Positions 1-56,177 of a stretch of 64,000 nucleotides of DNA are shown here, piece by piece. How positions within the stretch are numbered: position 1 is the stretch's first letter; every line of letters starts with the position of its first letter. Under the pieces are notes generated by a model. That model did no database searches, was not told the DNA's origin, and worked only from the letters and a program-made list of their open reading frames with translations. Source of the stretch: Histomonas meleagridis (taxonomy: Eukaryota > Parabasalia > Tritrichomonadida > Dientamoebidae); the NCBI GenBank assembly GCA_020186115.1, contig WSYJ01000013.1, positions 496,001 through 560,000 of the forward strand, given 5' to 3'. The translations under genes were made by a program, and so were the position numbers.

Positions 1-1818
1 TATTGATTCCTTTTTTCTCGAATAATTTAATAATTTTTTTATATCCAAATCTATACGCAATCATAACTGCTGTAAAATATAATTTGAATAAATTCCAAAA
101 AATATTTTGAGATATAAAATTATTAAAATAAATACAAAACTAAACTAATAAATATTTTTAGAATTGATATCTATCCCTTTTTGTTCAAGAAGTAATTTAA
201 CTATTTTAGTACTACTATTTTCTGTTGCAATCATTAAAGGTGTATAAAATATTAAGAGTAATTGTCAAATAATCAAATAAAATTTGAAATAATTGAAATA
301 ATTTTCAAGCAAATTAAAAAAATATCTTTTATATTAATATCAATACCTTCTTGTTTAAGAAGTAACTCCGCTATTTCTGTGAAACCACCTGTAGATACAT
401 ATACAAGTGCTGTATCAAATAATTTAAATGATTTCCAAATATTATTTTGAAATATTAAATTATCATAATAAAATTTAAATATTACAAATAGATATCTTGA
501 GCATTAATATCAATTCCTTCTTGTTCGAGAAGCAATTTAACAATTTCCGTGTGGCCATTATTAGCTGCATAAATAAGAGCTGTACGAAATTATTTGAATA
601 ATTTCTAAATATTTTTTTTAAATTTTGAATTATCAAAACAAACATTAATTTAAACAAATAAACATCTTTAGCATTAAAATTAATTCCTTTATGTTTAAGA
701 AGTAATTTGACTATTTCAGTATTACCATTTTCAGATGCAAACATAAGTGCTGTCCTAAATGATTTTAATAATCTCCAAATATTATTTTGAAATTTTATGT
801 TGCAAAAATAAATAAAATTTACAGCATTTACATCAATTTCTTCTTTAGCAAGAAGCATTTTAACGATTTTTATAGAACCATTCCATGATGATCTCATAAG
901 TGGCGAATGAAATGATTGAATTATTCTCCGAAATTTATATTGAAATTTCAATTTATAAAAAGATATTTTGAACATAAAAAATAAACATCTTGTAAATTAA
1001 TATCAACTCCTTTTTTTTCGAGAAGTAATTGAACAATTTTTTATTACCTTTAAAACTTGCCATTAATAGTAATGTTTGAAGTTAGTTAAACAATCTCCAA
1101 ATATTATTTTGAAATAAAAAATTATCAAAACCAATACTAAAACAAACAAATAAATATCTTTAGCATTAATATCAATCCTTTCTTGTTCAATAAGGAATTT
1201 AACTATTTCATTACGATGATGATTATATGCAATTGGAAGAACTGTTTCAAACCATTTGAAAAAATTCCATGTAATTTAATATAAAATTAAATTATTGGAA
1301 TAAATATTATCTTTAGAATTGATATCAATCCCTTCTTGTTCAATAAGTAATTTAGCTATTTCTAAATGACCATTTGCAGCTGCTTGTACAAATGCTGTCC
1401 AAAATAATTTAATAAGTTTCCAAATTACATTTTGAAATATTATTATATAAAAACAATCAAAAAATAAAACAATTTAATATCTTTAGCATTAATATCAATT
1501 TCTTTTTGTTCAAGAAGTAATTTAACTATTTCTATATTACCTTTTTCAGCTGCGATGATAAATGGTGTTTTAAATATTTTAAATATTCTTCAAAAATTAT
1601 TTTGAAATTTCAAATAAAAGAAATAAATATTAAATTCAATTAAAAAAAGTTTTTTTCATTTATATCAATATCTTTTTGTTTAAGAAGAAATTTAACTATT
1701 TCTATATTATTATTTAAAATTGCAGAAATAAAAGCCGTTCTAAATAATTTAAATGATTTCCAAATAATATATTAAAATATTAAATTATTAAAACATATTT
1801 TAAATAAAACAAATGTAT
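1..1818 (-). repeat. Array of ankyrin cassettes split by 80/63-bp spacers
   Basis: Read on the minus strand, this region holds ankyrin blocks at 1649-1738, 1479-1568, 1309-1398, 1156-1245, 987-1075, 817-906, 664-753, 494-583, 324-413, 154-243 and 73 to the edge. The complete blocks are 90 bp (30 codons) running from a Thr-Ala/Pro-Leu turn to an IDINAKD-like end; the exception is 987-1075, which is 89 bp. Between them lie spacers of exactly 80 bp (nine) or 63 bp (two: 1246-1308 and 754-816). The spacers share an AT-rich core around TTTCAAAATAATATTTGG. Eighty is not a multiple of three, so each spacer changes frame, and most carry an in-frame stop. The array continues directly from the DUF3447/ankyrin gene that ends at 1780. 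It is either a decayed gene or a gene whose spacers are removed; no GTATGT / ACTAACACACAG splice signals are visible. Confidence 0.85.
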
Positions 1819-3108
1819 GTCTTTAGCGTTTACATCAATTTTTTCTTGTTCAAGAATATATTTAACAAGTTCTACATTTCCTGATAATGAAGAACTAATT
1901 AAAATATTTTGTGGTATTTGACATTTTTCAAAATAATGTTTAACAAGGAATATATTCCCTTGAATTGCTGCCTTATTAATGAAATTATCTCTGATTTCTT
2001 TTTTATCATTTTCCAAAAATGATAACAATTCAAAATTACCACTGGATATACAAATGAAATTTAAATCATTGATATTACTTTTAAACATTTTCATAAATCT
2101 AGTTTTATAATAATCACTATCATCACTATCAGGATCAGAATCAGAATCATCATTCTTTGATGAACCGTTTATATTTTGCTCTACTAATTTATTTTCATAA
2201 AGATATTTAAAGATATCATTTCGATGAAACCGAATTGCTGTTTCATATGCACCAAAAAATGATGAATGATTTTGTTCACATAAATGAATGATTTCCATAT
2301 TTCCACCAGCAATTGCATATATGCCTGTATTATCTAGTTTAGAACCATTTAATAATAAATATTTAAAAATTTTACTTGATCCAAAAAACGCAGCATAATC
2401 AATTAATGTAACATATGTATTAGTAGTTGTATATCTTTCATATAGTGATGGTTTAATATATTGATTAAAATCAAACTCTTTTTGTGATGCCATTTCTTGA
2501 AGTTTTCCTATTTCATCATTTCGTATTATTTCTGTTATTTCACTTCGATTAACACCTTCTCTAATATATTTTTTATGAAGTTCCCAATTATTATTTGAAA
2601 GTTCGTTAATGTCTTTTAAAAAATGATAGTGATCAGAATTGAATGAAAAAAATCCATTAATTTCATCTTTTGTTTTATAATGTATAAAATATAATGAATG
2701 AATGTTTTTTGTAATACTTGAATCAATTAAATTTTGATCAATCAATTTCTCAATTAAATAATATGATTCTTGGGTATTGGCATTAGATATGCAATTACTA
2801 AAAATTTTAATAATGTCTGCTGTAATGTTCATTTTTTCTTCTTTTGTTTTAATTAACAGTAAATAATTTAAAAATATATCACCGTTGCCTTTTTGAGAAC
2901 AAAATGCAAAATAAACCAAATTGCATATTATAAGGTTAAATGAATATGGATAATTCGAATCGAATAATTCCATTGTATGTTGAACTGTTGACTCTAGATT
3001 TTCTTCATTTAAATTAAATACTACTTTCTGGACGGAAATAAGAAATTCCATATAAACAGATTTATTAAATTGATCTTTAGTGGTACTAAGAAGATTGCTC
3101 TCAGACAT
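1780..3108 (-). CDS. DUF3447/ankyrin-repeat protein (5' portion of the array gene)
   Basis: The longest uninterrupted frame of this locus is 442 residues from an ATG at 3108. Residues ~1-230 are an alpha-helical N-terminal region with no repeats I can name. Residues ~230-310 (DYAAFFGSSKIFKYLLLNGS and following) are the DUF3447 ankyrin-like segment typical of trichomonad ankyrin families. An acidic SDSDPDSDDSD stretch follows, then degenerate ankyrin repeats, ending in GNVELVKYILEQEKIDVNAK. The frame then enters the first 80-bp spacer and stops at 1780, while ankyrin coding resumes in another frame at 1738. Such proteins are usually cytoplasmic protein-binding scaffolds; no specific partner can be inferred. 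An AACGTT motif at 3135-3140 sits just upstream of the ATG. The stop at 1780 may not be the real C terminus. Confidence 0.8.
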   Translation of the reverse strand: MSESNLLSTTKDQFNKSVYMEFLISVQKVVFNLNEENLESTVQHTMELFDSNYPYSFNLIICNLVYFAFCSQKGNGDIFLNYLLLIKTKEEKMNITADIIKIFSNCISNANTQESYYLIEKLIDQNLIDSSITKNIHSLYFIHYKTKDEINGFFSFNSDHYHFLKDINELSNNNWELHKKYIREGVNRSEITEIIRNDEIGKLQEMASQKEFDFNQYIKPSLYERYTTTNTYVTLIDYAAFFGSSKIFKYLLLNGSKLDNTGIYAIAGGNMEIIHLCEQNHSSFFGAYETAIRFHRNDIFKYLYENKLVEQNINGSSKNDDSDSDPDSDDSDYYKTRFMKMFKSNINDLNFICISSGNFELLSFLENDKKEIRDNFINKAAIQGNIFLVKHYFEKCQIPQNILISSSLSGNVELVKYILEQEKIDVNAKDIHLFYLKYVLII

Positions 3109-5702: not shown

Positions 5703-7244
5703 TTATTCATAATAATCTGAATGTTTATATTCTATTTTTTTGTATGCATCCTTTTTAGTTTTATTCACATAGCAAACCGGCACATAATCTGCTTTTTCTA
5801 TAAAGTGACTGTAAATTCGGTTCATCAGATCGCCCTCTTTGTTTTCAGGGAGTTTGTTTAGTTTCCTATCTCTTGACTGCTTGTTCCAATCGTATTGATA
5901 TGTCTTATATTTGAATTGCTTCGACTTGACCGTTATGTTGCAAATCAATTTCGAAGCCAAACTTAAAGTTATGTCTTCTCCTTGAGCCAATGTATACGGC
6001 CTTAATCGTGCCGTAAGTTTTCCATGCATCGGTCTATACATTAAAGGCACTGCGAACGTATCTCTTTCGCTACAATTATCCTTCGCTATCATGCCAAAAA
6101 GTTTTGGTGACTTGGAGTTATAACTCGAACCACCCATTCCGATTATGGAATTATCATTTTTTATTTCGTCGACAAAACTTTGATGAACATTATTATCGAT
6201 TGGACTTTGGTCATCATCCCATCGCATAACGAAATCCACCGGAAACAACGAAGAGATGAAAATAGGAAACAAAAATAATGGGCTCCAATTATAGCCCCAA
6301 ATATGATACACAGGTCGTGATGACTTAGAACGTATTCGTGCTAAGTCTAATGTAATCCGATTTTCACATTGCACGATGCAATAAAATTCGGGTAATAATG
6401 TTTGCTTTTCATAATCAGTGATAAAGTTATAAATATATTTGCGCTTAAATTGGGGTAATAATAAGCCAAGTGTTGGATTGGTTGAATCATTAATGTTAGG
6501 ACACATTTGTGATCGTGGAATTTGTGGATTTATTATGTGATCATAATTTTGTTCGGGTTTAATACCATCGAAAAGATGATAAATGCTTTTGATATGCGGG
6601 TTTTTGGCAATAAGTAATGAAATGGATAAAAGAGGTGGTATGGAATTATATGTGGAATTGGTGTGGTAAAGAAGTTCACGGACTAATGGAGAACGAATAA
6701 TCGCTAAACCAATTCCTACATCATTGTTTTGATAAACTGTCTTGCCACCAAATATAACATCGTAGTCACCTTCGCAAAACTTAGAAACTGCTTCTTCAAG
6801 CCAGAGAGTGGATGGCATATAATTGACATTAGAAGTGTTGATGTAGAAAATGTAATCTGGCATGTTAAGGGAATAAAGCGATGCAATTAGTGGAATATAA
6901 CCAGTGTCTGGAAAATCAGAATAAATGACATTTTGAGTGAAACTAGATTTAGGAACTGATGAGTTATGAATTGACACAAAGTTTTGGCCAACACCACAAA
7001 CATTTTGGTCAAAGTCTTCATATGTCTCAACTTTAATAGGTGATACCATATCAACTGAAATGGATATGGTACAATCTATATTCTTTTCAGTGCAATAGAA
7101 CAATTTTGTACTTCTGATTTTTAACAAAAAATCTTTAGATTCTGGGAACTGCAAATAAAAAGAATATATGATAGGAAAAGAAACAAAAAAAAATGAAACA
7201 ACAATCTGAGTTATACGGAAACATGCTCTCGGTTTGTTTTCCAT
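5703..7244 (-). CDS. Type II membrane glycosyltransferase-like protein
   Basis: 513 residues from an ATG at 7244. A short basic N terminus is followed by one membrane segment at ~12-32 (TQIVVSFFFVSFPIIYSFYL), then a long lumenal domain with many N-glycosylation sequons. A candidate metal-binding DxD-type motif is RWDDDQ near residue 340, in a context (PVDFVMRWDDD) like that of GT-A glycosyltransferases; HIWGYNWSPLF and AQGEDITLS resemble acceptor-side elements. This topology is typical of Golgi glycosyltransferases, and trichomonads carry lipophosphoglycan-like surface glycans. I do not recognise an exact family, so donor and acceptor are unknown. A second frame with its own signal sequence overlaps the start (7211-7429). 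The stop is followed by A (TAAA). Confidence 0.55.
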   Translation of the reverse strand: MENKPRACFRITQIVVSFFFVSFPIIYSFYLQFPESKDFLLKIRSTKLFYCTEKNIDCTISISVDMVSPIKVETYEDFDQNVCGVGQNFVSIHNSSVPKSSFTQNVIYSDFPDTGYIPLIASLYSLNMPDYIFYINTSNVNYMPSTLWLEEAVSKFCEGDYDVIFGGKTVYQNNDVGIGLAIIRSPLVRELLYHTNSTYNSIPPLLSISLLIAKNPHIKSIYHLFDGIKPEQNYDHIINPQIPRSQMCPNINDSTNPTLGLLLPQFKRKYIYNFITDYEKQTLLPEFYCIVQCENRITLDLARIRSKSSRPVYHIWGYNWSPLFLFPIFISSLFPVDFVMRWDDDQSPIDNNVHQSFVDEIKNDNSIIGMGGSSYNSKSPKLFGMIAKDNCSERDTFAVPLMYRPMHGKLTARLRPYTLAQGEDITLSLASKLICNITVKSKQFKYKTYQYDWNKQSRDRKLNKLPENKEGDLMNRIYSHFIEKADYVPVCYVNKTKKDAYKKIEYKHSDYYE

Positions 7245-10670: not shown

Positions 10671-12083
10671 TTATTTTGATAACATAATTATATCTTCGTC
10701 TTTTGAGTTTCCGAAATATTTCTTAAATAGTTCTGTATTATCCACAGTACTCTTTGCCAAGAAAAATCTTATGTTTGATACCTCATCATTACAAAGCATT
10801 TGGAATTCCTTATCCAACGAAGTCGGAAAACCACATTTTACGATTAACTTTGCAAGTACGAGTCTTGTTTGCCAATTATCATTCATTAATTTCTTTGCTT
10901 CGAAAACATTAATTTCATTATCATCAATAAGTGTTTTCCATAATTCGATAGATTCATTCCTAATAACAGCAACGGGATCATTAGAATACATTTCTGCTAT
11001 TGGGCAAAGCTTTGAATGCAATGTTCCAACAAATTGTATCGTCTGATCGATAAGCGACTTTTTGATTCGCCAGTTTGGGGCGCCCCGTGGATTCAAAAAG
11101 TTCAAAAAGAAATCTTTTTCCTTAAAAACAAGAGAGAACTTGTACAAGTGCTGGATAAAGATTGGTGAAAACTTTACATCAAGGCAACAGTTAAGAAGAA
11201 GCTCTTGTTCGGATTCATCAATGATTCTTGATAAGTTTATCAAAGCTGCTGCAGAAGATTCGATTTCATATTTCATGCCTTCACGGAAATCAGGTAAAAC
11301 TGTTTTGAACCCATTGGCTTTAACAATTGGCTTGATGTTTCGAAATGCTGATTTTGCTGTATCTTTATCATGGAAAAGAATTTGATAAAGATCATAGCAA
11401 TTTGGGCATAATTTAGCAATAATTGGCGCTGTTTCTCTTCGAACTTTTGGGTTTCGATCTTTGATAGTGTTACGAATAACATATTGGATAAACTCGTAAT
11501 CAAAATTAGAGTTCGGAAGAGCTTTGAGAAGATCAACTTTTACCTGTGGAACACGATCAAGAAGTAATGCACGAATATAGCTGATGATTTTATCTGAATC
11601 AAGAACATATTGTGATAAAGTTGCGGCAAGTGAACGAAATTGAGCTTCGTTACTGGATGAGTCCTTGGCAATAATGTCTGTTAAAACTTTATCACGATGA
11701 CTTGGTGGAATAGAACATACAGTATTTGAGATTAGATTTGTTAATTTCTTAATAGCGAATGCTGAATTGTTTAAATGAAATGCCTCATGAAGGGCAGGTA
11801 AAATTTCATTGGTAACAAGATTTAATCCGTCTTCACCTAAGTTATCAATAAATATACGAATTAATACTGGCAGTCCTTCAATAGCGTCAAAATTCAGTTG
11901 CGCTATTTGTTGCTTTATGTGCGGTATTAAATTATTAATAACAACAGATAATGATAATGATGTTATTTTTTCATTATTTTCGGTAAAAGGTTGGCATGAT
12001 TGAGGAAAGAAATCTGCGTCTTTTCTTTGTTTTAATAATATTGCAGGAGGAGACATTTTAGAACTGTTTGGGACTTCAAGCAT
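10671..12083 (-). CDS. HEAT-repeat scaffold similar to PP2A regulatory subunit A
   Basis: About 470 residues of tandem HEAT helices with regularly spaced Asp-Arg/Pro turns (RDKVLTDII, DRVPQVKVDLLKALP, DRNPKVRRETAPIIAKLCP, DPVAVIRNESIELWK). The segment NWRIKKSLIDQTIQFVGTL matches the WR(V/I)...GxL repeat pattern of PP2A PR65/A, which scaffolds the catalytic C and variable B subunits. It is shorter and more divergent than canonical PR65 (about 590 residues), so it may be a paralogue with another partner. The frame extends upstream to a TTG at 12101; the ATG at 12083 is chosen, with ATG 12056 (MSPPAILL) as an alternative. A PP2A/4/6-type catalytic subunit is encoded at 61859. Confidence 0.65.
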   Translation of the reverse strand: MLEVPNSSKMSPPAILLKQRKDADFFPQSCQPFTENNEKITSLSLSVVINNLIPHIKQQIAQLNFDAIEGLPVLIRIFIDNLGEDGLNLVTNEILPALHEAFHLNNSAFAIKKLTNLISNTVCSIPPSHRDKVLTDIIAKDSSSNEAQFRSLAATLSQYVLDSDKIISYIRALLLDRVPQVKVDLLKALPNSNFDYEFIQYVIRNTIKDRNPKVRRETAPIIAKLCPNCYDLYQILFHDKDTAKSAFRNIKPIVKANGFKTVLPDFREGMKYEIESSAAALINLSRIIDESEQELLLNCCLDVKFSPIFIQHLYKFSLVFKEKDFFLNFLNPRGAPNWRIKKSLIDQTIQFVGTLHSKLCPIAEMYSNDPVAVIRNESIELWKTLIDDNEINVFEAKKLMNDNWQTRLVLAKLIVKCGFPTSLDKEFQMLCNDEVSNIRFFLAKSTVDNTELFKKYFGNSKDEDIIMLSK

Positions 12084-12669: not shown

Positions 12670-14046
12670 CTAGCTTAAATATCTTTCAAGGTCAAACATA
12701 TTTCCATTTTCTTCAAGGCATTGTTCGATCAACCACTTTCCATTAATTTCTTCTAATTGCTGCATCACAAATTCAATTCCATTTTTATTTTCTAGTGAAT
12801 TTAGCAACAAAGCGATTGCGTGTATGTACACCTCATGAATTGAATCAAAATCCATGTGTGCCAAAGTGATATCGAAAAGATTTTCCATAATTCCAAGATC
12901 AAACATTTGTATTCTTAAGTCATCTGTACCATATATAATGATTTTTGCCAAACAAATCGCAATTTCAGTTTTCACTTGACAAATCCCCGAATTAAATTCC
13001 GCCACGAAAAAATCGAGAATTCCTTTCGAAATGAACACGTCAATAGTTTGAGGTACAGATTCGAACAAATTCCCAATTAAATATAAAGTTGAAGTTCGAA
13101 TATTTTGCGGATTGTTTTCATTACAAAGAGCAATGAAAAGATCATAGTCTAGCGCAATGTCATCTCTGTGGGATTTACAATAGTATTCACTTAGGATAAC
13201 GATAAGATGTAAATAAAAATTTTCATTGATATTTAGTTGCTGAATATTATGAGTTAATACAGCAATTAATTTGTTTGGTATTTCGTACTTATCCATTAAT
13301 TCAATGAATCCGTTTAATTCTGTGAATTTTGCAATTGTAATAAATATTTTGCAAAATAAATGGATAAAATCAATTGGAAATTGGGAAATAATCACTGATG
13401 TGCCTTCAAATATAATTGGAATTCTTTTTATATGTATATATGTGATGCTGATTTTATGGATATATTCAGAATATGTTCGTAAATTATCTTGAATAAATTG
13501 ATCACCACAATTGGGAAGACAACCTAAAATAAGGGAAAAAACATTTTGCAATGAAACTTTTTGAATAATGAAATTATGGACTTCAACAGATAAGTGACAT
13601 ATATTTGAAAAAATCTTTAAAACTAATGGCAGTAGATTAGGTTCATCTAAAATGTCGGAGAGCATGCCAAGAAGATTACTTCCAATGAACAAATGAATGA
13701 AATTCCTATTGGAAGAGATGGCAAAATTATTGATTATATTTAATGACATTATCCTATATGGTAGTTGATTCATTTTTTCTGTTAAGTGTAGCAAAATTGT
13801 ATGTATTGAATGATTCTTAAATAAATCAAAGTTTGGAAAGTTATGATTTTGAGTCATATCCAATAGGAATTCCATGCACTTTAAAAGTACGCCTTCGTCA
13901 AAACATACAAAACTTTTTTTAAATGTTTTAAAAAAATATTCTGGATTTTCACCTCCATCATTTAAATCAATAACATTCTCATCCGTACAGAGTAATTGTC
14001 TTGGGCGCTTCCAATATCGTTTGCTATTGCTTTTATAAGTGATCAA
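12670..14046 (-). CDS. Armadillo-like alpha-solenoid protein
   Basis: About 458 residues made of repeated helix pairs (MSLNIINNFAISSNRNFIHLF, LPLVLKIFSNICHLSVEVHNFI, TSTLYLIGNLFESVPQTIDVFI, EVYIHAIALLLNSLENKNGIEF), the pattern of armadillo repeats as in importin-alpha-related proteins. No importin-beta-binding arginine cluster is obvious beyond KRYWKRPR at the N terminus. It resembles the protein at 29833-31275, which shares the overall length and a C-terminal SL/GSxxGxEF/M pattern, so they are probably members of one trichomonad family. Role: protein-protein scaffold, unspecified. The coding frame has no ATG at its 5' end: it opens after a TAA and the first plausible codon is a TTG at 14046; the first in-frame ATG is near residue 58. 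Confidence 0.6.
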   Translation of the reverse strand: MITYKSNSKRYWKRPRQLLCTDENVIDLNDGGENPEYFFKTFKKSFVCFDEGVLLKCMEFLLDMTQNHNFPNFDLFKNHSIHTILLHLTEKMNQLPYRIMSLNIINNFAISSNRNFIHLFIGSNLLGMLSDILDEPNLLPLVLKIFSNICHLSVEVHNFIIQKVSLQNVFSLILGCLPNCGDQFIQDNLRTYSEYIHKISITYIHIKRIPIIFEGTSVIISQFPIDFIHLFCKIFITIAKFTELNGFIELMDKYEIPNKLIAVLTHNIQQLNINENFYLHLIVILSEYYCKSHRDDIALDYDLFIALCNENNPQNIRTSTLYLIGNLFESVPQTIDVFISKGILDFFVAEFNSGICQVKTEIAICLAKIIIYGTDDLRIQMFDLGIMENLFDITLAHMDFDSIHEVYIHAIALLLNSLENKNGIEFVMQQLEEINGKWLIEQCLEENGNMFDLERYLS

Positions 14047-16917: not shown

Positions 16918-19900
16918 TCATAGCTCGATCATTAACATTTCTTCTATATTATTATTATTAATATATTCCAACAATTTCTTATTTTTAATTTTATCATCGA
17001 AAGTATTCAACATATCTTTCCATGTATCTTTATTTTCTTGACTTTCATTTTTCTCGACCAATTTACCGAACATCTTCAATATGACCAAAACATTTTTTGT
17101 TTCATCTGCATTTAAGAATTTTTCTCGAGAGAAAACCAACATCATTTGTGTCATTGACACGTTTTCGAAGATAAGCTTTGTATTTAACACCACGTCTTTT
17201 AGGTATCTTCCACAATTTACAGTTGCATTCAACAATTCATTAATAATCTCCGTGTAAACAGTCTCCTCGGAATTTGCGCTAAACATTGTGCACAAATCCA
17301 TTGAATCCATATTAAACAATTTCTTTGCTATTTCATAAGACGATACGTTTGGATTTGACAGAGTTTGTTTGGTTCTCGAGATTACACCTTGTGAATTTGA
17401 GTTTATGTAAATATAACTGTCGAATTTGATTGAAAATAACGGGTCCCAAAGATTCAATGGTATCTTATTGAAATCTTTGAAAAGTAATTCAAAGAAAACT
17501 TTCTTTGGGTTCGGAATTAACTTTGTCAAATCTTTTGCTTCAATGTTCTCAGGCCAATATGGGGAAACGAAATATTGGACTAATTCACGTGTGTATGAAG
17601 GAGGGTTTGCGTCACTATATTGAAATCCTACAACTATATTTCCAACACCAGATATATCATTAATTATGGAATAAAGATAATATATATTACCTCTGAAGTT
17701 ATTTTTTGCGATTTCGATTATTTTATTGAACTGTTCATTAGTTAAGTTCAAATGGAACAAAACATTAAATAATATTTGATCATATGATCGATTATTATCG
17801 AATATATTTAATAACTTATCAATAATATTTGTGTTGTCTAAAGTAATTTGTTGGAATGGTAACAATTGTATTAGCGCTGGAAGTTTATCATTCATTAATT
17901 CGATGTTTGGAGGGAAATCAAATTGTTCAATCAAAGGATTTGTTAAAGTTGGAAACATATTTTTAGATATTAAATATTGGAACTCATATAATGGAATTTG
18001 GAATTCATTAACTTCTTCAAACAGTTTAAGAATTTCATCGATTTTCTCGAAAAATTCCGTTTTATCAATGAACAAATATTTAATTAATGGATAATTCTCT
18101 ACATCGAAATGTTTTGTATCAATTGCCAAAATTGCTTCAATTAAAATACGAATTTTATTATTCATTGTATTACATAATAAGTTAATTAAATTTGGTGCCG
18201 AAAAATCATTAATTCCAAGTTCTAATAATGACTCTTCGATTAAATCAATTTCTTCTTTAGTTAATTCTTCCCATTTCTTATGAACATGTTTAAACAAAAA
18301 TGAAAATGAATAAATAGAATATAAATCATTACGTTTCACATGTATCTTTTTAACCCATTTATCAACATGAATATTTAATGAATGACGTAATGAATAACCT
18401 AAAAATGCTAAGTCGAATTTAGAATCATTTAATACTGATAATGAATATTCTTCAATTTGTTCCCAATCATTAGTTTTACGATTAGAATACCATAGGAAAG
18501 TAAACAAAAGTGTTTTAGAAAATTCATAATTTTTATATTGTGAATTTGGTAATGTTTTAGATTCATATTGATATGTTTCGATTTCAATATCTTTATCTTC
18601 TTCATTAATAAATTCTCCAATTTTAATATCATTTGATATATTAAAATGAATTCTTTCTTTTGTTAATGAGTTTTCATCTTTTTCGATAATGAATGAATTT
18701 GGATATTTTTTAATTACATTTTTATGAACTTTATCTAAAACTTCATAATTATTAACTTTAATATTCTTTAATGTTGAAATATATTCATAATCTTCTTCAA
18801 TTATATCCCATTTATAGAACGGTATCTTTTGGATACAATCTTCAATATAACTTCTTTTTGTTGGATCATTTTTGAAATATAAAAATGTATTATGTGGATG
18901 AATTAAGTTATTAATTTTCGCAATAATTCGTCGATCATAATCAGAAGCGATTGTTAAATAATCGCTAATGATATATAATGATTGAGGATTTAAACATTTA
19001 ATTGCTGTTAATGATACAATTAATGAATATTTATATTGGAAAGATTGCTTAAAGAACATGTTCATTGAATTCCGAACTTTTTCATCGTCTTTGTTTTCAA
19101 TTTTTTCGTTTAAGTTCGTAATGAATTTACATGTGTTATTTGTAAAAGCAGTTGCGAATATACTTGCCAACGATATCAATGATAAAATTTGTGTGTTATT
19201 TAAGTCAATATATTTAACTGTTGATGATAATAATAAAATACATGAGTTAACAATCTTACCAAAAGTAGTTTTAGGTAAATTATCATTAATGATCGAAAAG
19301 ATTTTTAATAATTGATCACATAAAAATGACCATTTCTTATTAATGAATTCTTTTAAGTTCTTTTTTTCATCGAAGTTTAATCCTATTTTCTTAAGTGCGC
19401 AAAAAATCACATAAATTGCACGTGAGAATAATTCTTTTGATATTTCTTGATTATAATCATTAATATTATTAATTATTAATTTAATTGCAGAGTCAAATGA
19501 AGCTGGTGGTAATAAATCATTATCTAATATCTCTAATATTAATAATGGATCACATTTCTTGATGAATTTGATATAATATGATGAATTTTCAAACCAATTT
19601 AATTTAGAAAGTGGTATATTAACATTAATGATTTTAAGTAATTCTTTTAGTTCTGGAATTACTAAGTAATGCGGCTTTTCTAATAAGTTCATTATGATTT
19701 CCATAATATTTGTCTTTAAATCATTAAGACGAAATGCTTCCCAATTAATGTTCTTAAATAATTTGATTAATGATATTTGCTCAACAAAATATCGTGGAAA
19801 TGGATTAATACATAAATCAAAGATTTTCGAGGCGCTGACTGGCGCTATTTGATAAAGATCATTAAAACAGTCACTTAATGATCGAAGAAGATTGTCAAAT

Positions 19901-20976
19901 GGAATCGGATCTCTTTCGATTGCAATTTTTGTGATGAAATCAAGAAATCCTTTTGGAATAAGTTTTTTCTTTGTAATGTATAATGAAGAAACACGGATAA
20001 CTGGAACAATAAACGAGTTAGGAAGGGATGAATCATAACAAATAAAGTTTTGAAGTGATTCAAGAGTTATAATATTACATTTCTCGGCTGAAATAAAAAG
20101 ATCAATGATCGCCGACTTTTGTGATGGCGTGGAATTATTTTGCCAAACATTCTCTACATCAGTGAATATTTTGTTCCATTTGGTGTTGGTGGGTGGTTTG
20201 GTTGAATTTGTGAATAATAATTGTATTATTTCAATTGCACCAGAAATGTCTGAGGAATTGCTGGAAGTAAGAAATGTATCAAGACGATCTAATAAAATGT
20301 CAGAATTGATAAGATATGCGATTGGAATGTATGGAATAATTTCTTTGAAAAATTGAGTCGTACTTTGCTCAGCAACAATTGGTATTAATTTTTTCGGATC
20401 TTTGCAAGCAAACATTGCAACTGTTTGTGCTAAAGGTGTGTTTATTAGGTATTGAACAATTGATTGATATGCAGGTGAAAAGAAATCAGAGAGCATTTCC
20501 CAATCTGATGTTGAAATCTTGGTAAGCATGTCAGCCCTACTACTTAAAAGTAATGAATGACATGTGCCAAAATAATCAATTCTTTTATTTGGATTGACAT
20601 ATCGTAAAGAATATGTTAAAAATGAAAAAAGAGAAGCCTGTGCTGCTGGCTGTAGTGAAGTAGTGTCTATTTGTTGAAAAACTTGAAGGAGATTTTGTGG
20701 TGAAAAAGAAGAAATTAATGAATACCAATGAATTAAAAAATGTTCCGATTGTTGTCTAAGGTTAACATTTTCGTGTGATGTAAGTGGTAAAACTAATTTT
20801 ATTATTCTGTATAAAAAATTATCTTTTGTGGCTTTAAAATTTGATATAATTAAACCAATCGGAAGTGTAGACAACTCCAAGATTTTTGATTCCATTTTAC
20901 TAACATTGTTAGATGAAATTGCTGATTCAAGGAGTTTAATGTTTCCTGAAAGAATTAATGAATTTGCCCTCAACAT
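16918..20976 (-). CDS. Very large alpha-solenoid protein of unknown family
   Basis: 1352 residues in one uninterrupted frame from an ATG at 20976. It is almost entirely predicted helix, in HEAT/ARM-like pairs (NLLQVFQQIDTTSLQPAAQA, IPELKELLKIINVNIPLSKL, TQILSLISLASIFATAFTNN). I see no signal peptide, membrane segment, kinase, protease or RING motif. Asn and Ile are strongly enriched towards the C-terminal half, matching the local AT bias. Long solenoids of this kind include karyopherins, Ral-GAP/tuberin-type and ubiquitin-ligase scaffolds; nothing seen favours one. An AACGGTTT motif at 20990-20997 is only 14 bp upstream of the ATG. Confidence 0.7.
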   Translation of the reverse strand: MLRANSLILSGNIKLLESAISSNNVSKMESKILELSTLPIGLIISNFKATKDNFLYRIIKLVLPLTSHENVNLRQQSEHFLIHWYSLISSFSPQNLLQVFQQIDTTSLQPAAQASLFSFLTYSLRYVNPNKRIDYFGTCHSLLLSSRADMLTKISTSDWEMLSDFFSPAYQSIVQYLINTPLAQTVAMFACKDPKKLIPIVAEQSTTQFFKEIIPYIPIAYLINSDILLDRLDTFLTSSNSSDISGAIEIIQLLFTNSTKPPTNTKWNKIFTDVENVWQNNSTPSQKSAIIDLFISAEKCNIITLESLQNFICYDSSLPNSFIVPVIRVSSLYITKKKLIPKGFLDFITKIAIERDPIPFDNLLRSLSDCFNDLYQIAPVSASKIFDLCINPFPRYFVEQISLIKLFKNINWEAFRLNDLKTNIMEIIMNLLEKPHYLVIPELKELLKIINVNIPLSKLNWFENSSYYIKFIKKCDPLLILEILDNDLLPPASFDSAIKLIINNINDYNQEISKELFSRAIYVIFCALKKIGLNFDEKKNLKEFINKKWSFLCDQLLKIFSIINDNLPKTTFGKIVNSCILLLSSTVKYIDLNNTQILSLISLASIFATAFTNNTCKFITNLNEKIENKDDEKVRNSMNMFFKQSFQYKYSLIVSLTAIKCLNPQSLYIISDYLTIASDYDRRIIAKINNLIHPHNTFLYFKNDPTKRSYIEDCIQKIPFYKWDIIEEDYEYISTLKNIKVNNYEVLDKVHKNVIKKYPNSFIIEKDENSLTKERIHFNISNDIKIGEFINEEDKDIEIETYQYESKTLPNSQYKNYEFSKTLLFTFLWYSNRKTNDWEQIEEYSLSVLNDSKFDLAFLGYSLRHSLNIHVDKWVKKIHVKRNDLYSIYSFSFLFKHVHKKWEELTKEEIDLIEESLLELGINDFSAPNLINLLCNTMNNKIRILIEAILAIDTKHFDVENYPLIKYLFIDKTEFFEKIDEILKLFEEVNEFQIPLYEFQYLISKNMFPTLTNPLIEQFDFPPNIELMNDKLPALIQLLPFQQITLDNTNIIDKLLNIFDNNRSYDQILFNVLFHLNLTNEQFNKIIEIAKNNFRGNIYYLYSIINDISGVGNIVVGFQYSDANPPSYTRELVQYFVSPYWPENIEAKDLTKLIPNPKKVFFELLFKDFNKIPLNLWDPLFSIKFDSYIYINSNSQGVISRTKQTLSNPNVSSYEIAKKLFNMDSMDLCTMFSANSEETVYTEIINELLNATVNCGRYLKDVVLNTKLIFENVSMTQMMLVFSREKFLNADETKNVLVILKMFGKLVEKNESQENKDTWKDMLNTFDDKIKNKKLLEYINNNNIEEMLMIEL

Positions 20977-22737: not shown

Positions 22738-25700
22738 ATGTTTTGCTTGTTTCTTGTTAAGGCTTTGACAACATCAACATACGCAGACGGCGTCCTTACT
22801 ATTGATGACGATACGAATACAAATCTTGACATAGCTGTTCTAACTTCCGTCTTGGATCAATATATGGCAACGATTGAAAATGTTCGTGAATTATATATTA
22901 AAGGTATTGTAACTAAAATTGCAGAAGGGCTATTTGCAAATCAAAACACATTAGAAAAGATAGATATTACAAACAATGTCTTCGAACAAATCGGTAATAA
23001 CGCATTTAATAATTGTCCTAATCTTAAAACTATCATAATATCCAGTGTCAAAACAATCGGTAGTGCTGCTTTCAAAAAATCTGGAAAACAAGCAAATCTT
23101 ATTTCTTTAGTATTACCTGAAGGTCTTAGTTCTGTTGGTGAAAATTGCTTTGATGAATTGAAGTTAGGTTCTGTTACATTACCATCAACGCTTAAAACTT
23201 TACCAAATTACTGCTTTTATAATACTTACGATTTAACATCAATTGATTTACAATATGTTACATCAATCGGAGAATATTGTTTTTATAATTCTAAACTCAA
23301 TACTTTAACTGTTCCTTCTGGCTGCCAAGTTTTATATGAAGCTTTTGGTAATACTTTTGCACTTACTTCAGTAATATATAGAGGCAACAACATACCAACT
23401 AAATGTTTTGATATTTCAGTAATGAAATCAATTACCATTGAAGGTACAACAACTATTGAAGACAATGCATTTACTGGCGTTAAAGAATTAGCAGGAACAC
23501 TTGTAGTTCCAAGAAGTGTTACCTCAGTTGGAATTTATTCTTTCCAAAATGCAAAATTTGATACTGTAATTTGGAATGCATCTGTTGATATTTCAGATGG
23601 TTCATTTTTCCAAATTCAGGAACTCAAAAATGTAACAATTATTGGAAACGTTCAAAAAATTGGATATAGGGCATTTTTCGAATGTAAAGGATTAACTACT
23701 GTACACCTACCAGCAAATCTTACCACAATTGACAATGAAGCATTTCACACTACATCAGCACTCGAATCAATTAATTTTGAAGATACACAAATTGCTTCAA
23801 TTGGAACATATACATTTTGTGCTTCAACTTCATTGACAAGCTTAACATTTCCACCTACAATTAATCAATTTTTGGAAGGTTCATTTTATGGCTGCACATC
23901 TTTAACAAGTGTCATATTCGATGAGAAAACATTACCAATTGATTTCGGTACGAAAGTCTTTGCAGCATGTTCAAGTCTCCATAATATTTCTATTCCAAAT
24001 GGTTCAATATATGACGCAGAAACATTTCCAGCAGAATGTAATGTTACACTCTTTACAGTCACATCTGTTGCTGAAATTGAACTTCCACCAGGAAATTGTT
24101 TTATTAATGGATCATTACAAATTGATGATGATACATTAATTATCGATGAAACAATAATTAATTCAATATTAAATGGTTCAAGTATATCCGAAGTAACAAA
24201 TCTTTATATTAGAGGAAGTTCAGCATATCAAATTTCTGCTAATTTATTCACAAATTGCACAAATCTTTCACTGATTGAAATCTCTAGTTCGAATTTCCGT
24301 ACAATTGGAGAAGGCGCATTTAGTGGTTGCTCAGGACTTCTTGTAATTAGACTTCAATATGTGCGTATTATCCAACAAAGTGCATTCCAAAATGCAGGTA
24401 GTCCGAGTATAGAACTTATTATACCATCAAGTATAGAACAAATTGGTGAACATGCATTTAATGGATTTCGATGCAAAGAAGTTCAATTACCATCAACATT
24501 AACCAAACTCTCAAGTCACTGTTTTTGTGGCAGTTCATTAAGGTCAATTAATTTGGATCATGTTACACTAATAGACGATAATTGCTTTGATGGTTCAAAT
24601 ATCGAAAATGTTGTACTTACTTCAGATATGACTGTTCATCAATATGCATTTGCAAACACAAAACGTCTTAATCATGTTGAATGTTATTTAACTGAATTAG
24701 TTAATGATGTTTTCCATTACAGTTCTATTAAATCAATTAATCTTACATCAGTTACAAGCATTGGGAATAATTGCTTTAGTGAATCAAGCATCGAATCGAT
24801 TGTATTACCTGAAACATTAGGTTCGAATTGGACTGGTATTTATACATTTGAAAAGACACCAAATCTTAAGACAGCAATAGTTAAAAGCCATGTACTTCCT
24901 GAAGGTACATTTTTCGAAGCGACCAGTCTACAAACTATTGAATTACCTGACTATATCGAAACAATCGGAAATTTTGCATTCCGATACAGTTCTATTAAAT
25001 CAATTAATCTTAAATCAGTTACAAGCATTGGGAATAATTGCTTTGGTGAATCAAGCATCGAATCGATTGTATTACCTGAAACATTAGGTTCGAATTGGAT
25101 TGGCACTTATACATTTGAAAAGACACCAAATCTTAAGACGGCAATAGTTAAAAGCCATGTACTTCCTAAAGGTACATTTTTCAAAGCGACCAGTCTACAA
25201 ACTATTGAATTACCTGACTATATCGAAACAATCGGAGATTTTGCATTCCAATATACAATCATAACAGGTAATTTAACAATACCAAGCAGTGTAACTTCAA
25301 TTGGTTCTTATACATTTGAAGGCGCATCTATTGAATATTGCTTTTATAAGGGAAGTGCGCCAATACCAACAGGATTTTTGTTTTCAATATCAACATTAAA
25401 GGGAATTGAAATCACAGGAACTACGGAATCAATAGGCGAAAATGCTTTCTATCACACATCTATCTCACCAATATTAAATCTTTCACATACACATATTACT
25501 TCAATTGGAGTGAGTGCATTTGAAGGATGCCCAATTGTAACATTAGTTTTACCTGTAAGTTTGACATATATTAATACAAAAGCATTTTATTATTGCACTT
25601 CACTTGAAGAAATATTATTCGAAGACTTAAATAACTCGAAGCCAATTACGTTTGGATCAGAATCATTTGCTGCTTGTAATATGCTTCCAGATTCAATAAA

Positions 25701-25971
25701 ACTTCCATATGGTTCTCACCCAGCTGATTCAACTGGTTGGGGATCTGCATTTCCAACAGATATAGAAATTGATACACCAACACTTCCGTCTTCTGGAGGT
25801 GGCAGAACAACTTATGGCGATGATAATTCAGGCTCTGGTTTGTCAGATGGAGCTTTGATTGCGATTATTGTTGTGGCTATTGTTGTAGTTGCTGCTGTTA
25901 TTATAGGCGTTGTGTTTTATGTAGTGAAAAGAAAGAGAAAATCAGATTCTGGTGAATCAGTAACAATATAG
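22738..25971 (+). CDS. BspA-like leucine-rich-repeat surface protein
   Basis: 1077 residues. A short hydrophobic leader (MFCLFLVKALTTSTYADG) precedes a long run of 23-residue TpLRR units with the BspA core (IxxIGxxAFxxCxxLxxIxLPxx). At the C terminus a Gly/Ser linker (SSGGGRTTYGDDNSGSG) leads to a transmembrane helix (ALIAIIVVAIVVVAAVIIGV) and a short basic/Ser tail, so it should be a type I surface protein. Two homologous halves are visible, each opening with a xLxIDDDT segment (residues ~20 and ~465). The second half also contains an 89-residue (267-bp) near-identical tandem duplication starting at 24719 and 24986. BspA proteins are a large trichomonad surface family linked to host or bacterial adhesion; adhesion here is inference. 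Confidence 0.9.
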   Translation: MFCLFLVKALTTSTYADGVLTIDDDTNTNLDIAVLTSVLDQYMATIENVRELYIKGIVTKIAEGLFANQNTLEKIDITNNVFEQIGNNAFNNCPNLKTIIISSVKTIGSAAFKKSGKQANLISLVLPEGLSSVGENCFDELKLGSVTLPSTLKTLPNYCFYNTYDLTSIDLQYVTSIGEYCFYNSKLNTLTVPSGCQVLYEAFGNTFALTSVIYRGNNIPTKCFDISVMKSITIEGTTTIEDNAFTGVKELAGTLVVPRSVTSVGIYSFQNAKFDTVIWNASVDISDGSFFQIQELKNVTIIGNVQKIGYRAFFECKGLTTVHLPANLTTIDNEAFHTTSALESINFEDTQIASIGTYTFCASTSLTSLTFPPTINQFLEGSFYGCTSLTSVIFDEKTLPIDFGTKVFAACSSLHNISIPNGSIYDAETFPAECNVTLFTVTSVAEIELPPGNCFINGSLQIDDDTLIIDETIINSILNGSSISEVTNLYIRGSSAYQISANLFTNCTNLSLIEISSSNFRTIGEGAFSGCSGLLVIRLQYVRIIQQSAFQNAGSPSIELIIPSSIEQIGEHAFNGFRCKEVQLPSTLTKLSSHCFCGSSLRSINLDHVTLIDDNCFDGSNIENVVLTSDMTVHQYAFANTKRLNHVECYLTELVNDVFHYSSIKSINLTSVTSIGNNCFSESSIESIVLPETLGSNWTGIYTFEKTPNLKTAIVKSHVLPEGTFFEATSLQTIELPDYIETIGNFAFRYSSIKSINLKSVTSIGNNCFGESSIESIVLPETLGSNWIGTYTFEKTPNLKTAIVKSHVLPKGTFFKATSLQTIELPDYIETIGDFAFQYTIITGNLTIPSSVTSIGSYTFEGASIEYCFYKGSAPIPTGFLFSISTLKGIEITGTTESIGENAFYHTSISPILNLSHTHITSIGVSAFEGCPIVTLVLPVSLTYINTKAFYYCTSLEEILFEDLNNSKPITFGSESFAACNMLPDSIKLPYGSHPADSTGWGSAFPTDIEIDTPTLPSSGGGRTTYGDDNSGSGLSDGALIAIIVVAIVVVAAVIIGVVFYVVKRKRKSDSGESVTI
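24719..25252 (+). repeat. 267-bp tandem duplication inside the BspA-like gene
   Basis: The segment starting ACAGTTCTATTAAATCAATT at 24719 recurs at 24986, an offset of 267 bp (89 codons). The copies differ at few positions (for example SESS/GESS, NWTGIYT/NWIGTYT, LPEGTFFEAT/LPKGTFFKAT). The frame is preserved, so the duplication added about four LRR units. The low divergence suggests recent unequal exchange. Confidence 0.9.
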
Positions 25972-29832: not shown

Positions 29833-31275
29833 TTAGTTTTCTACATTTATACCATAAAATTGGCAAATTTGCAAAAATCGATCTTCTTCATCAATTCCAC
29901 TGATTGCTTCCGCTCCATCGCATCTGTTAAACTCAGCTACCATTATTTCCATTCCTTCAACAGATCCTACTTTATTGCACAACATGTCGAAAGTATCGCA
30001 TAAAACTTTCGACAATTCGGCTTCATTTAATTCGATCAAATCGAACAAAACTCGAAGAAAAGAGCTCTTAACAAGTTCCAAACATTGGATTCCTGACGCC
30101 TTATGGACAACGTTGTTCAATAATTTGAAACATTCAGTACGAAGTGAAAATTGGAAATCATTAAATTTGTCAATAATTCCTTCAAATATGCCTAATAAGA
30201 AGCCAATAGTTCCTTCATTAACAGCGAAGGAATTAAGTAACTGTAAAAAGTTTTCTTTCCAAGGAGCACTATCACAAAACATTGTTAATAATTTATCCCA
30301 TGGAATAACAGAACATATTTTTTCAAACAGTGGTAAGTTTGATATGTCGCCATTGAGGGCACTTGCTATTGTGATAAAAAGAATTAGAGTTGAGTTGATG
30401 ACTTCATCATCAGAAGAATTGAGTGCTCTGACAAAGGTCATTATAGTGTCTTCTTGACAGAAAAAACCTAAAGCAATTTGCGGGTAGTTTCCGCAAAGAT
30501 TTTCATATATCTGTAAGAGGACACTCCTTTGAGATGGATGAGAACTAGCAAAACAACCGAACAGAGTCTGTGAAAATGAAATAACGGTTTTATCATCAGG
30601 GTTAACAAGTGGGTGATTAATGAAGTTAAAAAGGAAGTAAAAAATAGATAACTTTAAGCGTTCGTTCTTGAAATAAAGTGGATCATCAAGAGTTTTGAAG
30701 GCAAAATCGGCAATGCCAGATTGTAAAAGGGCATTGAAAACAGGAGGGGGAGCATGTGTAATGATCTCAATTAAAAGATAAAAGACAAAGGCTTGCGCAA
30801 CAGGGGTATAGTAATTGAAAAGTTTTTTGAAATGAATAAAAAAATTCATTTTTAAAAGATCTTCACAAAAAAACATGTTTTGCGCAAATAGAAAAAGGGT
30901 CCTAAACGAAAGATCAACTATATGACTTTCAATAATTAATGAATTGCAATCAATACCATCAGAATCTGGATTTATTCTTATGAGATCGAAAAGAATTTTG
31001 GCTGTTTCTTTTTCACATAAGAGTTCATGAATTTTTTGCTGATCTTTTTCATTTTCAACAAAATAAATTTGAATATTGCTTAAAGCCTCATTAACTTTTG
31101 GTGGGTCATTGCTTATATATCCATCTTGAAGCATAGAAGTAAATGCAAATAATTGTTCGAAATATTCTTCGAATGACATGTTTTTTATTGGCTTTTTCAA
31201 ACTATTTGGATCAAACACGTCACCGCTGAAAAGATCTTCTAAGCTAAAGTTCTTAAGTCCTTTTTTGTATTCCAT
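29833..31275 (-). CDS. Armadillo-like alpha-solenoid protein, paralogue of 12670-14046
   Basis: 480 residues from an ATG at 31275. An acidic N-terminal lead (LKNFSLEDLFSGDVFDPNSL) is followed by repeated helix pairs (SFRTLFLFAQNMFFCEDLLK, AQAFVFYLLIEIITHAPPPV, STLILFITIASALNGDISNL, RTECFKLLNNVVHKASGIQC). No enzyme motif or membrane segment. Length, helix rhythm and the C-terminal pattern (GSVEGMEIMVAEFNRCDGAE) recall the protein at 12670-14046, so both probably belong to one expanded trichomonad scaffold family. Motifs AAACGC (31348-31353) and AAACGTG (31358-31364) lie 75-90 bp upstream. Confidence 0.6.
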   Translation of the reverse strand: MEYKKGLKNFSLEDLFSGDVFDPNSLKKPIKNMSFEEYFEQLFAFTSMLQDGYISNDPPKVNEALSNIQIYFVENEKDQQKIHELLCEKETAKILFDLIRINPDSDGIDCNSLIIESHIVDLSFRTLFLFAQNMFFCEDLLKMNFFIHFKKLFNYYTPVAQAFVFYLLIEIITHAPPPVFNALLQSGIADFAFKTLDDPLYFKNERLKLSIFYFLFNFINHPLVNPDDKTVISFSQTLFGCFASSHPSQRSVLLQIYENLCGNYPQIALGFFCQEDTIMTFVRALNSSDDEVINSTLILFITIASALNGDISNLPLFEKICSVIPWDKLLTMFCDSAPWKENFLQLLNSFAVNEGTIGFLLGIFEGIIDKFNDFQFSLRTECFKLLNNVVHKASGIQCLELVKSSFLRVLFDLIELNEAELSKVLCDTFDMLCNKVGSVEGMEIMVAEFNRCDGAEAISGIDEEDRFLQICQFYGINVEN

Positions 31276-54017: not shown

Positions 54018-56177
54018 ATGCTGATTTTTCTATTTTCTGTTTTATGTCAATTTAAAGAACTTTACTTTAATATCAGCTCACCAGACAATGAAACATGTAA
54101 TAGCATTAATGGGTGCAATTTAAAAACAATTAATTCAACAATCAAAGATAACGATATAATTCATATAACAAATTCTATTTTATCGGATGAATCGGCTCAT
54201 GTTTTTTTAGAATGGATTAATTCAACATCGTTAACAAATATTACGTTAATTGGTAATAATACATTAATTTCAAATCCTGGATTCGAAGATTCTGAATATC
54301 CAGCAATCTTCATTGAAAATGGGTCAATTCAAATCCAAAGCATTATCTTTTCAGGTTTTAGAAATCCAATTCTTAATTCCAACAATTCCTTAATTTCAGT
54401 TAAAGAAACTATATTTTCAAATTCATGTCTTTCAAAATCAGCGCTTCTAGCGTTTGTTAATTCGAATGTTTCCATTGATAATTCACAACTTATCAATAAC
54501 ACAGCTCAATCACAGTCACATCTTGTTGGTGTTAATTGCACAATTACACTTAACTCACTCAAATCCACAATAAATTTTATTGAATCTTTATATATTAAAG
54601 CTTCTTTTCATTTTCTTAATTGTAGTGTTATGGTTGAAAACGGAAACTTTTCTTCAAACACATACAAACTTCCGATGTTTGCGTCATCTAATTCAAGTTC
54701 TCTTACTGTATCACATTCGACATTTGAATATAATGGAGTTCTTTGTTTATTTGCTCTTGAATTTGATTCTATTGTTAATATAACTTCATGTAAATTCTCT
54801 TATAATGTTGGAACAATAATTACAGGCGGCCAAACATCATTTGCATCTTTTACAAGCTGTACAATTGACAATCAGCATAGTGAAGATTTACTTTTCGGGA
54901 TCACTGAATCAAGTATTAACATCACAGATAGTATCTGTACGAACTCAAATATCGCCGGTTTTGCATTGTTAAATTTAATAAACAAAACCCAAAATAAAAT
55001 GAAAATCAAAAATATTACATTAACTTCTATTAAATCGAAAGTTCCTCTTTTTATTGCGGTTGGTGGAAATTTAACATTTAACAAATGTAATATTGAAAAT
55101 GTTGAGTCAGAAGCAGAGATTGTTATTATAAGTCATCAAAATGGCAATTTCATAAATATAAAAGAATCGAATTTCTCGAAACTTATTTCAACAAATGCTG
55201 TTTCAACTGGAATTTCTGGTATTAATTGTAATAATAGTTATATTAATCATATTAATATGTTCGAGAATAATATTTGCGGAGCCCTTTTCGAAAACACAAC
55301 ATTATACTTAAATAATTCGAAATTCATAAAAAATCAATGTTATCCACAAGGTAATTCTTTACCTTTAGCTATTGTTACATCTTCTTTATCGAATACATCG
55401 ATCAAAAATTCCATATTCCATAATAATAGCGCTTTAACTGGTTCTGTTTTCACAATGAATACTACTACTAAACTCAAAAATATCGAATTTGCATCGAATA
55501 AAGCAATTCAAGGAGCCGCAATATTCTCTGCAAACTCAAACATAAAAGTGAAAAATACAAATTTCATTAGTAATTCCGCTATGTCTATAGGAGGAGCAAT
55601 AAGTTTTACATATGGAAATGCTAATTTCACAAATTGTTCATTTATAAAAAATGATTCGCCTGAAGGTTCCGTGTTTTCTATTAAAAATGGTATTAATATT
55701 ACTTTAGATAAATGTATTTCTAAATTAAATAAAGGTGCAAACGCTACTTTTATAAATGCTGAAGGTTTGAATATGAAATTGTTTGTTAACAATTCAGAAG
55801 TCGATGACGAATTTAAAAAAGCTGTTTATGTCGGCGATTTTGAAGTTGCGAATTTTTCAAGTACGAAATTTAACTGTAAAAATAAATGCGCATTTGGAGA
55901 GTTATTAAAGCCGAATTTAAGGAGAAATACGAAAAAGGAAGAAAATAAAACGCCAACACAATCAAAACAAAACATTCAAACAAAAGCGGATGATGATGAA
56001 TTGGAATTCGGTGATGAAGAATTCGAAACTCAAAAATCTTTCAACATTTTATGGGTGGCTTTGCCAGTGACTATATTCATTTTGTTTGTAATATACAAAA
56101 TACTTGGCCCTCGTAAGACAAGAAAAATCTTCAACGCAATTATTAGGTCAAGAGGTAGACGGGATAATTGGTCATAA
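54018..56177 (+). CDS. Pmp-like beta-helix surface protein
   Basis: 719 residues from the ATG at 54018. A signal peptide (MLIFLFSVLCQFKELYFN) leads into a long right-handed beta-helix built from short parallel strands with regularly spaced Asn and Phe (NCSFIKN, NTNFISNSA, NSIFHNNSALTG). It contains GGAI-type repeats (IGGAISF, GAAIFSA), the hallmark shared by chlamydial polymorphic membrane proteins and the trichomonad Pmp family. There are very many N-glycosylation sequons. A juxtamembrane acidic linker precedes one transmembrane helix (ILWVALPVTIFILFVIYKI) and a basic cytosolic tail (RKTRKIFNAIIRSRGRRD). Probably a type I surface protein with an adhesion-like role, by analogy with the family. 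The stop is TAAA. Confidence 0.85.
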   Translation: MLIFLFSVLCQFKELYFNISSPDNETCNSINGCNLKTINSTIKDNDIIHITNSILSDESAHVFLEWINSTSLTNITLIGNNTLISNPGFEDSEYPAIFIENGSIQIQSIIFSGFRNPILNSNNSLISVKETIFSNSCLSKSALLAFVNSNVSIDNSQLINNTAQSQSHLVGVNCTITLNSLKSTINFIESLYIKASFHFLNCSVMVENGNFSSNTYKLPMFASSNSSSLTVSHSTFEYNGVLCLFALEFDSIVNITSCKFSYNVGTIITGGQTSFASFTSCTIDNQHSEDLLFGITESSINITDSICTNSNIAGFALLNLINKTQNKMKIKNITLTSIKSKVPLFIAVGGNLTFNKCNIENVESEAEIVIISHQNGNFINIKESNFSKLISTNAVSTGISGINCNNSYINHINMFENNICGALFENTTLYLNNSKFIKNQCYPQGNSLPLAIVTSSLSNTSIKNSIFHNNSALTGSVFTMNTTTKLKNIEFASNKAIQGAAIFSANSNIKVKNTNFISNSAMSIGGAISFTYGNANFTNCSFIKNDSPEGSVFSIKNGINITLDKCISKLNKGANATFINAEGLNMKLFVNNSEVDDEFKKAVYVGDFEVANFSSTKFNCKNKCAFGELLKPNLRRNTKKEENKTPTQSKQNIQTKADDDELEFGDEEFETQKSFNILWVALPVTIFILFVIYKILGPRKTRKIFNAIIRSRGRRDNWS

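Follow-up and report, generated by a model that had tools for sequence, protein, structure and literature searches.

Short U2-type introns are known to interrupt protein genes of parabasalids and were divided in Trichomonas vaginalis into types A and B; in the available part of PMC12316389 the type A introns are 56–196 nucleotides (nt) long, and the introns of this species are characterized by GT-AG borders, by an extended motif at the 5′ end and by a branch site that is fused with the 3′ end, with no multiple introns per transcript reported there (for further parabasalid background see PMC6679479 and PMC11978803, also available in part). Another described group is the nonconventional introns of euglenids, which have neither conserved borders nor a U1-complementary 5′ end and form a stable RNA structure joining the intron ends, and whose route of removal is left unexplained in the accessible portions of PMC4770533 and PMC6221363. 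The present analysis concerns a stretch of 64,000 nt of Histomonas meleagridis DNA (assembly GCA_020186115.1, contig WSYJ01000013.1, designated C11, positions 496001–560000), referred to as the window, whose minus strand carries an array of ankyrin blocks separated by spacers. This array is the 3′ part of one gene in a large DUF3447/ankyrin family of H. meleagridis.

In one-repeat-per-exon genes, which have grown by exon-intron duplication, the exon length keeps the reading frame and similar introns lie between the exons; in the silent cassette system vls of Borrelia a gene is followed by an array of open and similar cassettes. The Histomonas spacers, like the parabasalid U2-type introns, are short interruptions of protein genes, but they are without the GT-AG, GTATGT and ACTAACACACAG signals and are present in 3 to 38 copies per fetched array. 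With the euglenid introns they have in common the absence of conserved borders and of a U1-complementary 5′ end, while they differ in having no conserved fold and in being near copies of one another at one position of one repeat. One-repeat-per-exon genes are known with ordinary GT-AG introns, whereas the Histomonas arrays sit in an intron-poor host and lack GT-AG borders; the layout of vls, a gene and then open cassettes, is the same, but an expression-site recipient was not found here with strict flanking words or among the best 150 of 9,473 candidates.

It is moderately probable that each array belongs to a gene with one repeat per exon, that its introns, not of the GT-AG type, are removed precisely, and that such genes grew by tandem duplication. 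In such a gene exon 1 would consist of the N-terminal part and the first repeat, each later block would serve as an exon for a single ankyrin repeat (clearly coding over 31 codons, with about 33 in the mature protein), and the last block would hold the stop codon. The spacers of 77 and 60 nt would be introns cut precisely from RNA without GT-AG borders or GTATGT / ACTAACACACAG signals, and the family would grow by tandem duplication of exon plus intron. From the sequence we infer the transcription of the arrays, the removal of spacers at the RNA level and the exact junctions. A preliminary description of the window had listed a non-canonical repeated intron, a silent cassette reservoir and an old homogenised array as options, the first of which fits best; its broader interpretation, selection on the blocks with removal of the spacers, is partly supported, as selection and spacer disuse agree with the stop codons, the codon-position pattern and the genome-wide counts, while removal is the inferred part.

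The assembly searched comprises 43,276,120 bases in 121 contigs, and the array used as a DNA query gave at least 84 genome matches (40 of 1,769 candidates scored). The spacer sequence recurs in the genome flanked by ankyrin blocks: a 27-base spacer core has 1,230 exact copies (control 0), and at all 14 places chosen by eye from 100 listed core positions an ankyrin block adjoins the core on at least one side, so that none of these 14 places lies outside ankyrin arrays. The automatic block match was poor or out of register on one side in L053, L056, L060 and L062, and the downstream block of L053 has a stop of its own. When fixed flanking words were used, 60–90 nt separated a block end from the next block start at 1,629 places (control 0), and the same words found 0 pairs of directly joined blocks (0–24 nt apart) in the whole genome, although joints of the L036/L039 type escape these strict words. 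The DUF3447 matches scored, the best 150 of 1,695 candidates, were all (150/150) above the Pfam cut-off. The joined repeat consensus as a query returned general ankyrin proteins among the best 120 of 5,362 matches, and no relatives were found in viral contigs.

For close study 31 arrays (20 with long flanks and 11 shorter) were drawn from the best matches, being hence a non-random sample, and yielded 331 units, 306 of them distinct. The gene L036, having no spacers, was set aside from the array statistics, and for the array L011 the statistics are given with and without it; L011 (C72:126000–135999) contains at least 39 detected ankyrin blocks and many one-base length changes, blocks included, which may represent assembly errors or a decaying array. 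The fixed 80-base spacer length, earlier regarded as striking, is no genome-wide rule, since the units are 170 nt long in 241 of 331 cases, 153 nt in 39 and 123–176 nt in the rest, with all three modulo-3 classes present. The emphasis on exactly 80 bases is weakened both by these variable lengths and because the boundary is probably to be placed differently, with the coding block likely reaching one codon beyond the 5′ limit of the T...D register used for the first counts. This codon 0, which comes first after the spacer, is hypervariable, with 16 different residues and 44 codons beginning with T, yet it is a stop in 0 of 306 units, for which reason the spacers are counted here as 77 and 60 nt. 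Spacerless relatives have a repeat of 102 nt (34 residues), and one spacerless joint also occurs within an interrupted array (L036, L039).

The distribution of stop codons suggests that the blocks are coding. A stop in block codons 0–30 was observed in 4 of 306 units, all in L011 and in units with the block start one base out of register, versus 167 of 306 units with a stop in the spacer read in the same frame; outside L011 the counts are 0/275 for blocks and 162/275 for spacers. The spacer rate predicts about 70 block stops in the 208 units of 170 nt outside L011 (47 without the polymorphic codon 43) and 0 were observed, the Poisson value for this difference not being literal because the units are related by descent. 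Counted per array, block stops are absent from 30 of the 31, and spacer stops likewise occur in 30. Further along the block frame the 306 units show 0 stops at codon 31, 9 at codon 32 and 11 at codon 33, and the sequence shows a boundary between coding and non-coding parts. Detection of blocks was ungapped with a mild stop penalty, which finds stop-bearing blocks and can miss frameshifted ones; the stop counts therefore apply to detected blocks only, and gaps of 339 nt in L009w, 317 nt in L014, 502 nt in L025, 227 nt in L011 and 306 nt in L039 mark such missed places.

The substitution pattern points in the same direction for the older arrays. Over the 10 blocks and 6 full-length spacers of the window array, the second-position difference is 0.142 in 25 core codons, compared with 0.323 for spacer sites (p=0.0018). 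The ratio of nonsynonymous to synonymous rates (dN/dS) in core codons is 0.25 (L038), 0.47 (L039), 0.50 (window) and 0.55 (L047) for the four arrays whose spacers have diverged most, which indicates purifying selection on blocks in older arrays; elsewhere the values are 0.27–1.26, with outliers L044 (2.9, 4 blocks) and L015 (3.6, very similar blocks). Pooled dN/dS is 1.27 for the variable codons 0, 5 and 8 versus 0.66 for the core, these three codons matching known variable surface positions of ankyrin repeats. A count of insertions and deletions from pairwise alignments (54 in blocks, 108 in spacers) was not used, as many block indels were paired gaps in diverged first repeats.

These data also bear on the explanation that the old arrays represent pseudogene tails in decay and the young arrays recent amplifications, the contrast between blocks and spacers being left by earlier selection and chance. 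Decay agrees with the single frameshifted block in the window array, with several one-base insertions inside L011 blocks, with the dN/dS of several young arrays, which is close to 1 or higher, and with abrupt array ends, such as that of L010 inside a spacer, but it is improbable in view of the complete lack of stops in the 275 detected blocks as opposed to the spacers and of the low dN/dS (0.25–0.55) in the four arrays whose spacers diverge most. The related option of an old array with recent homogenisation was right in that many arrays are recently homogenised, but homogenisation leaves the contrast between blocks and spacers unexplained.

The spacers, which look non-coding but partly conserved, contain 92% A+T compared with 72% in the blocks; where they have diverged, ATTT at their 3′ end and TTTG some 20 nt upstream of it are well conserved. 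Removal of 68, 71, 74 or 77 nt would preserve the frame and give 31–34 residues per mature repeat, of which 31–33 are favoured because stops sit near the spacer ends: keeping IYL is disfavoured by the stops at codons 32 and 33, and keeping two codons ahead of codon 0 by the stop at codon −2 in 4 of 306 units. If the spacers are taken as introns, the commonest boundary dinucleotides consist of A and T only. Several removal schemes were rejected: GT at spacer base 9 with AG inside codon 0 is in frame in 19/306 units but keeps codons 32–33, the site of 20 stops in 306 units; AT-AC borders, reasoned from the consensus, are out of frame; and excision between the end repeats, TATTT copies 73 nt apart, would leave 97 nt and lose the frame.

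Another possibility is that translation copes with the spacers by read-through, frameshifting or ribosomal hopping. Units of 153 nt maintain the frame, with 22 of 35 being open, and by reading the consensus spacer is open in two frames; however, 71 of 306 units, in 27 of 31 arrays, are uncrossable by read-through or one frameshift (28 of 65 units with frame-keeping length and, even with one frameshift, 43 of 241 others). A single mRNA would require many successful hops, there is no conserved hairpin, and in the consensus the distance between the terminal TATTT copies does not restore the frame, all of which makes a translational mechanism very improbable.

The canonical parabasalid intron is present in the genome in other places. 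As had been stated, GTATGT...ACTAACACACAG is absent from the array, and in the wider set GTATGT occurs in 0/306 spacers, ACTAAC in 0/306 and ACACAG in 2/306, one window spacer outside that set having ACTAAC. Canonical introns of this type were identified in a DHHC palmitoyltransferase gene (71 nt; L034, C91 at about 123,554) and in a protein kinase gene (301 nt; L035, C103 at about 164,262), both of which, by reading, join recognisable protein motifs in frame; the exact 3′ motif ACTAACACACAG has 3 genome occurrences (control 2). The search for spliceosomal small nuclear RNAs (snRNAs) revealed a U6 candidate at C36:377228–377335 (L048; E 1.9e-8, 43.7 bits, slightly under the Rfam cut-off of 44), while the U1 model gave no match, at a threshold at which it also matches bacterial controls, so that this negative carries no information.

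With regard to array ends, the final block contains its own in-frame stop at codons 22–30, just after helix 2, in 10 of 31 arrays (L013, L014, L018, L020, L023, L027, L028, L037, L040 and L044). In 7 more (window, L016, L019, L021, L022, L045 and L046) it enters, by reading, a tail unlike the spacer and then meets a stop, L021 and L022 sharing the C-terminal tail KKEGIQDEITDKAND. The remaining 14 arrays finish at KDI or close to it, within a spacer, or where the fetched piece stops. The clustering of ends after the second helix favours true ends, as supporting evidence only.

In a further explanation only the N-terminal open reading frame (ORF) is translated, ending in or near spacer 1, and the rest is an untranslated tail, a silent cassette reservoir kept alike by gene conversion among arrays. 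Young arrays are indeed alike in blocks and spacers both, in about 12 of 17 arrays with a traced N-terminal ORF this ORF, by reading, ends in or just past the first spacer, and predicted proteins of relatives also end at KDI or run into a spacer. Nevertheless, no recipient was found in a search limited to strict flanking words and the best 150 of 9,473 candidates: there were 0 joined versus 1,629 spaced pairs (joints of the L036/L039 type would be missed), and among the matches listed in those best 150 contiguous three-repeat matches were only two, 60% and 51% identical to the consensus. Moreover, the first repeat of the ORF, where seen, is of its own type (ELVKYIL and the like) and no copy of array blocks, and old arrays, in which spacer stops are common, have none in detected blocks. 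Taken together, a silent tail is unlikely, though it deserves more weight than decay.

Further information comes from the proteins of a related species in a metagenome, nine of which have tails that run into readable spacers and were compared ungapped with Histomonas spacers. The best match of P0001 in this genome is 60% identical, and that of P0013 51% for the best-scoring match and up to 57% over part. The tail of P0003 agrees with Histomonas spacers at 45% of 25 positions (shuffled 9%) and that of P0013 with 153-nt spacers at 12 of 20 positions (shuffled 2), followed by P0015 (47% of 12 positions, shuffled 13%) and P0016 (37% of 12, shuffled 11%). Some genes of this relative, whose proteins are about 50% identical, still show spacer similarity, which is clear for P0003 and P0013. 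No spacer is seen in P0001, P0002, P0005, P0009, P0010, P0012 and P0018, which end at KDI or beside it. P0022 (718 amino acids), a distant DUF3447/ankyrin protein, has uninterrupted repeats and then a hydrophobic spacer-like insert between two repeats, a hint at an origin of the interruption before Histomonas or at two separate origins.

A number of observations weigh against precisely removed introns. Among the tails of the relatives little similarity was seen for P0004 (30% of 12 positions, shuffled 12%, reached by 5% of shuffles), P0011 (20% of 23, shuffled 8%, reached by 3%) and P0006 (23% of 12, shuffled 9%, reached by 8%), and P0014 and P0021 were no better than shuffled. In the window array first codon positions are as diverged as spacers, third positions are not conserved either, one of 12 blocks is frameshifted, and the second-position test with all 31 codons gives p=0.09; in younger arrays core dN/dS is often near 1 and exceeds 1 in L044, L015, L037 and L046. 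Terminal stops are weaker evidence than they seem, because an array broken inside a block would also soon meet a stop in A+T-rich DNA, and a mature repeat of 31–33 residues would be shorter than the 34 of spacerless relatives.

Signals for removal are likewise missing from the spacers. No splice-site consensus was found at the spacers of the 306 units, and in-frame GT..AG pairs occur in 0/306 units with GT between 12 nt upstream and 5 nt downstream of the block end and AG in the last 12 nt of the spacer, in 4/306 with AG within the last 20 nt and in 23/306 at the widest limits. Folding of 9 sequences indicated no stable or conserved RNA fold (z +0.73 to −1.25), and RNAalifold with 36 diverged spacers gave no base pair. 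Processed copies were not found in the whole genome with strict flanking words, and protein-database searches returned no transcript or spliced protein, the coverage of this species' transcripts by the databases being uncertain. Finally, the annotation of a virulent H. meleagridis strain, made by AUGUSTUS trained with a transcriptome, includes 573 introns and at most one per gene in the available part of PMC8529796.

If the spacers are introns, the 1,629 strict-word junctions alone are nearly three times this number, with many per gene, and gene finders assuming GT-AG would be blind to them and would end the annotated proteins at the first spacer. Outside Euglenozoa this would be one of few cases of non-GT-AG introns, offering many near-replicate introns with natural variation for finding signals, and with its variable residues at codons 0, 5 and 8 the system may also produce binding diversity. 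A more far-reaching and rather doubtful proposal is that an intron-poor parabasalid has 1,600 or more copies of introns of a class not yet described, non-GT-AG and excised with precision, at one place in one repeat type, which would be removed by machinery other than standard U2 splice-site recognition, the duplicable and recombinable unit of exon plus intron building an ankyrin binding repertoire. In the literature on introns, ankyrins and transcriptomes of Histomonas, trichomonads and Dientamoeba no description of these spacers was found among the titles and abstract starts listed, a coverage to which subscription papers mostly do not belong.

In the window, repeat finders report tandem repeats on the minus strand with period 170, two units of 153 and one of 169. 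Unit-by-unit inspection gives 12 ankyrin blocks and 11 spacers, one block lying inside a 442-amino-acid ORF, ten others following within the window and the last block running past its edge. The eleven minus-strand blocks of the preliminary description, placed in 1..1860, are real, but this extent was too small: the gene starts at 3108, and the stop of its last block lies at contig C11 495,948, that is, window −52. The remaining counts were reproduced exactly, with a 90-nt block in the T...D register, nine spacers of 80 nt and two of 63 nt, an inherited-frame stop in 8 of 11 spacers and GT at bases 9–10 in 6 of 11; the block recorded as 89 bp long is one base short. The ORF (1780..3108, minus strand, as are all features below) has Ank_2 and DUF3447 domains above the Pfam cut-off; it comprises the N-terminal DUF3447/ankyrin part and the first ankyrin block, enters spacer 1 and stops there. 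Its last repeat is block 0 (1819..1911, ending ...DVNAKD).

Spacers are 77 nt long with an inherited-frame stop unless indicated otherwise. Spacer 1 (1742..1818) is followed by block 1 (1649..1741), spacer 2 (1572..1648), block 2 (1479..1571), spacer 3 (1402..1478), block 3 (1309..1401), spacer 4 of the short class (1249..1308, 60 nt, also with a stop) and block 4 (1156..1248). Spacer 5 (1079..1155), open in the inherited frame, holds the sole ACTAAC of the 11 window spacers and precedes block 5 (987..1078), the shortened and only frameshifted block of the array. Then come spacer 6 (910..986), block 6 (817..909), spacer 7 (757..816, short class, 60 nt, open), block 7 (664..756) and spacer 8 (587..663), which is open in the inherited frame and has TAA in the frame of the next block, two codons ahead of its first codon. 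The array continues with block 8 (494..586), spacer 9 (417..493), block 9 (324..416), spacer 10 (247..323), block 10 (154..246), spacer 11 (77..153) and the terminal block (1..76), whose in-frame stop is the one outside the window.

Elsewhere in the window no known structured RNA reached the Rfam gathering score, and six long ORFs (16918–20976, 5703–7244, 10671–12083, 12670–13875, 29833–31275 and 54018–56177) have no Pfam match. A 267-bp tandem duplication with 95% matches is located at 24712–25253 within the gene of a BspA-type leucine-rich-repeat protein (22738–25971, plus strand).

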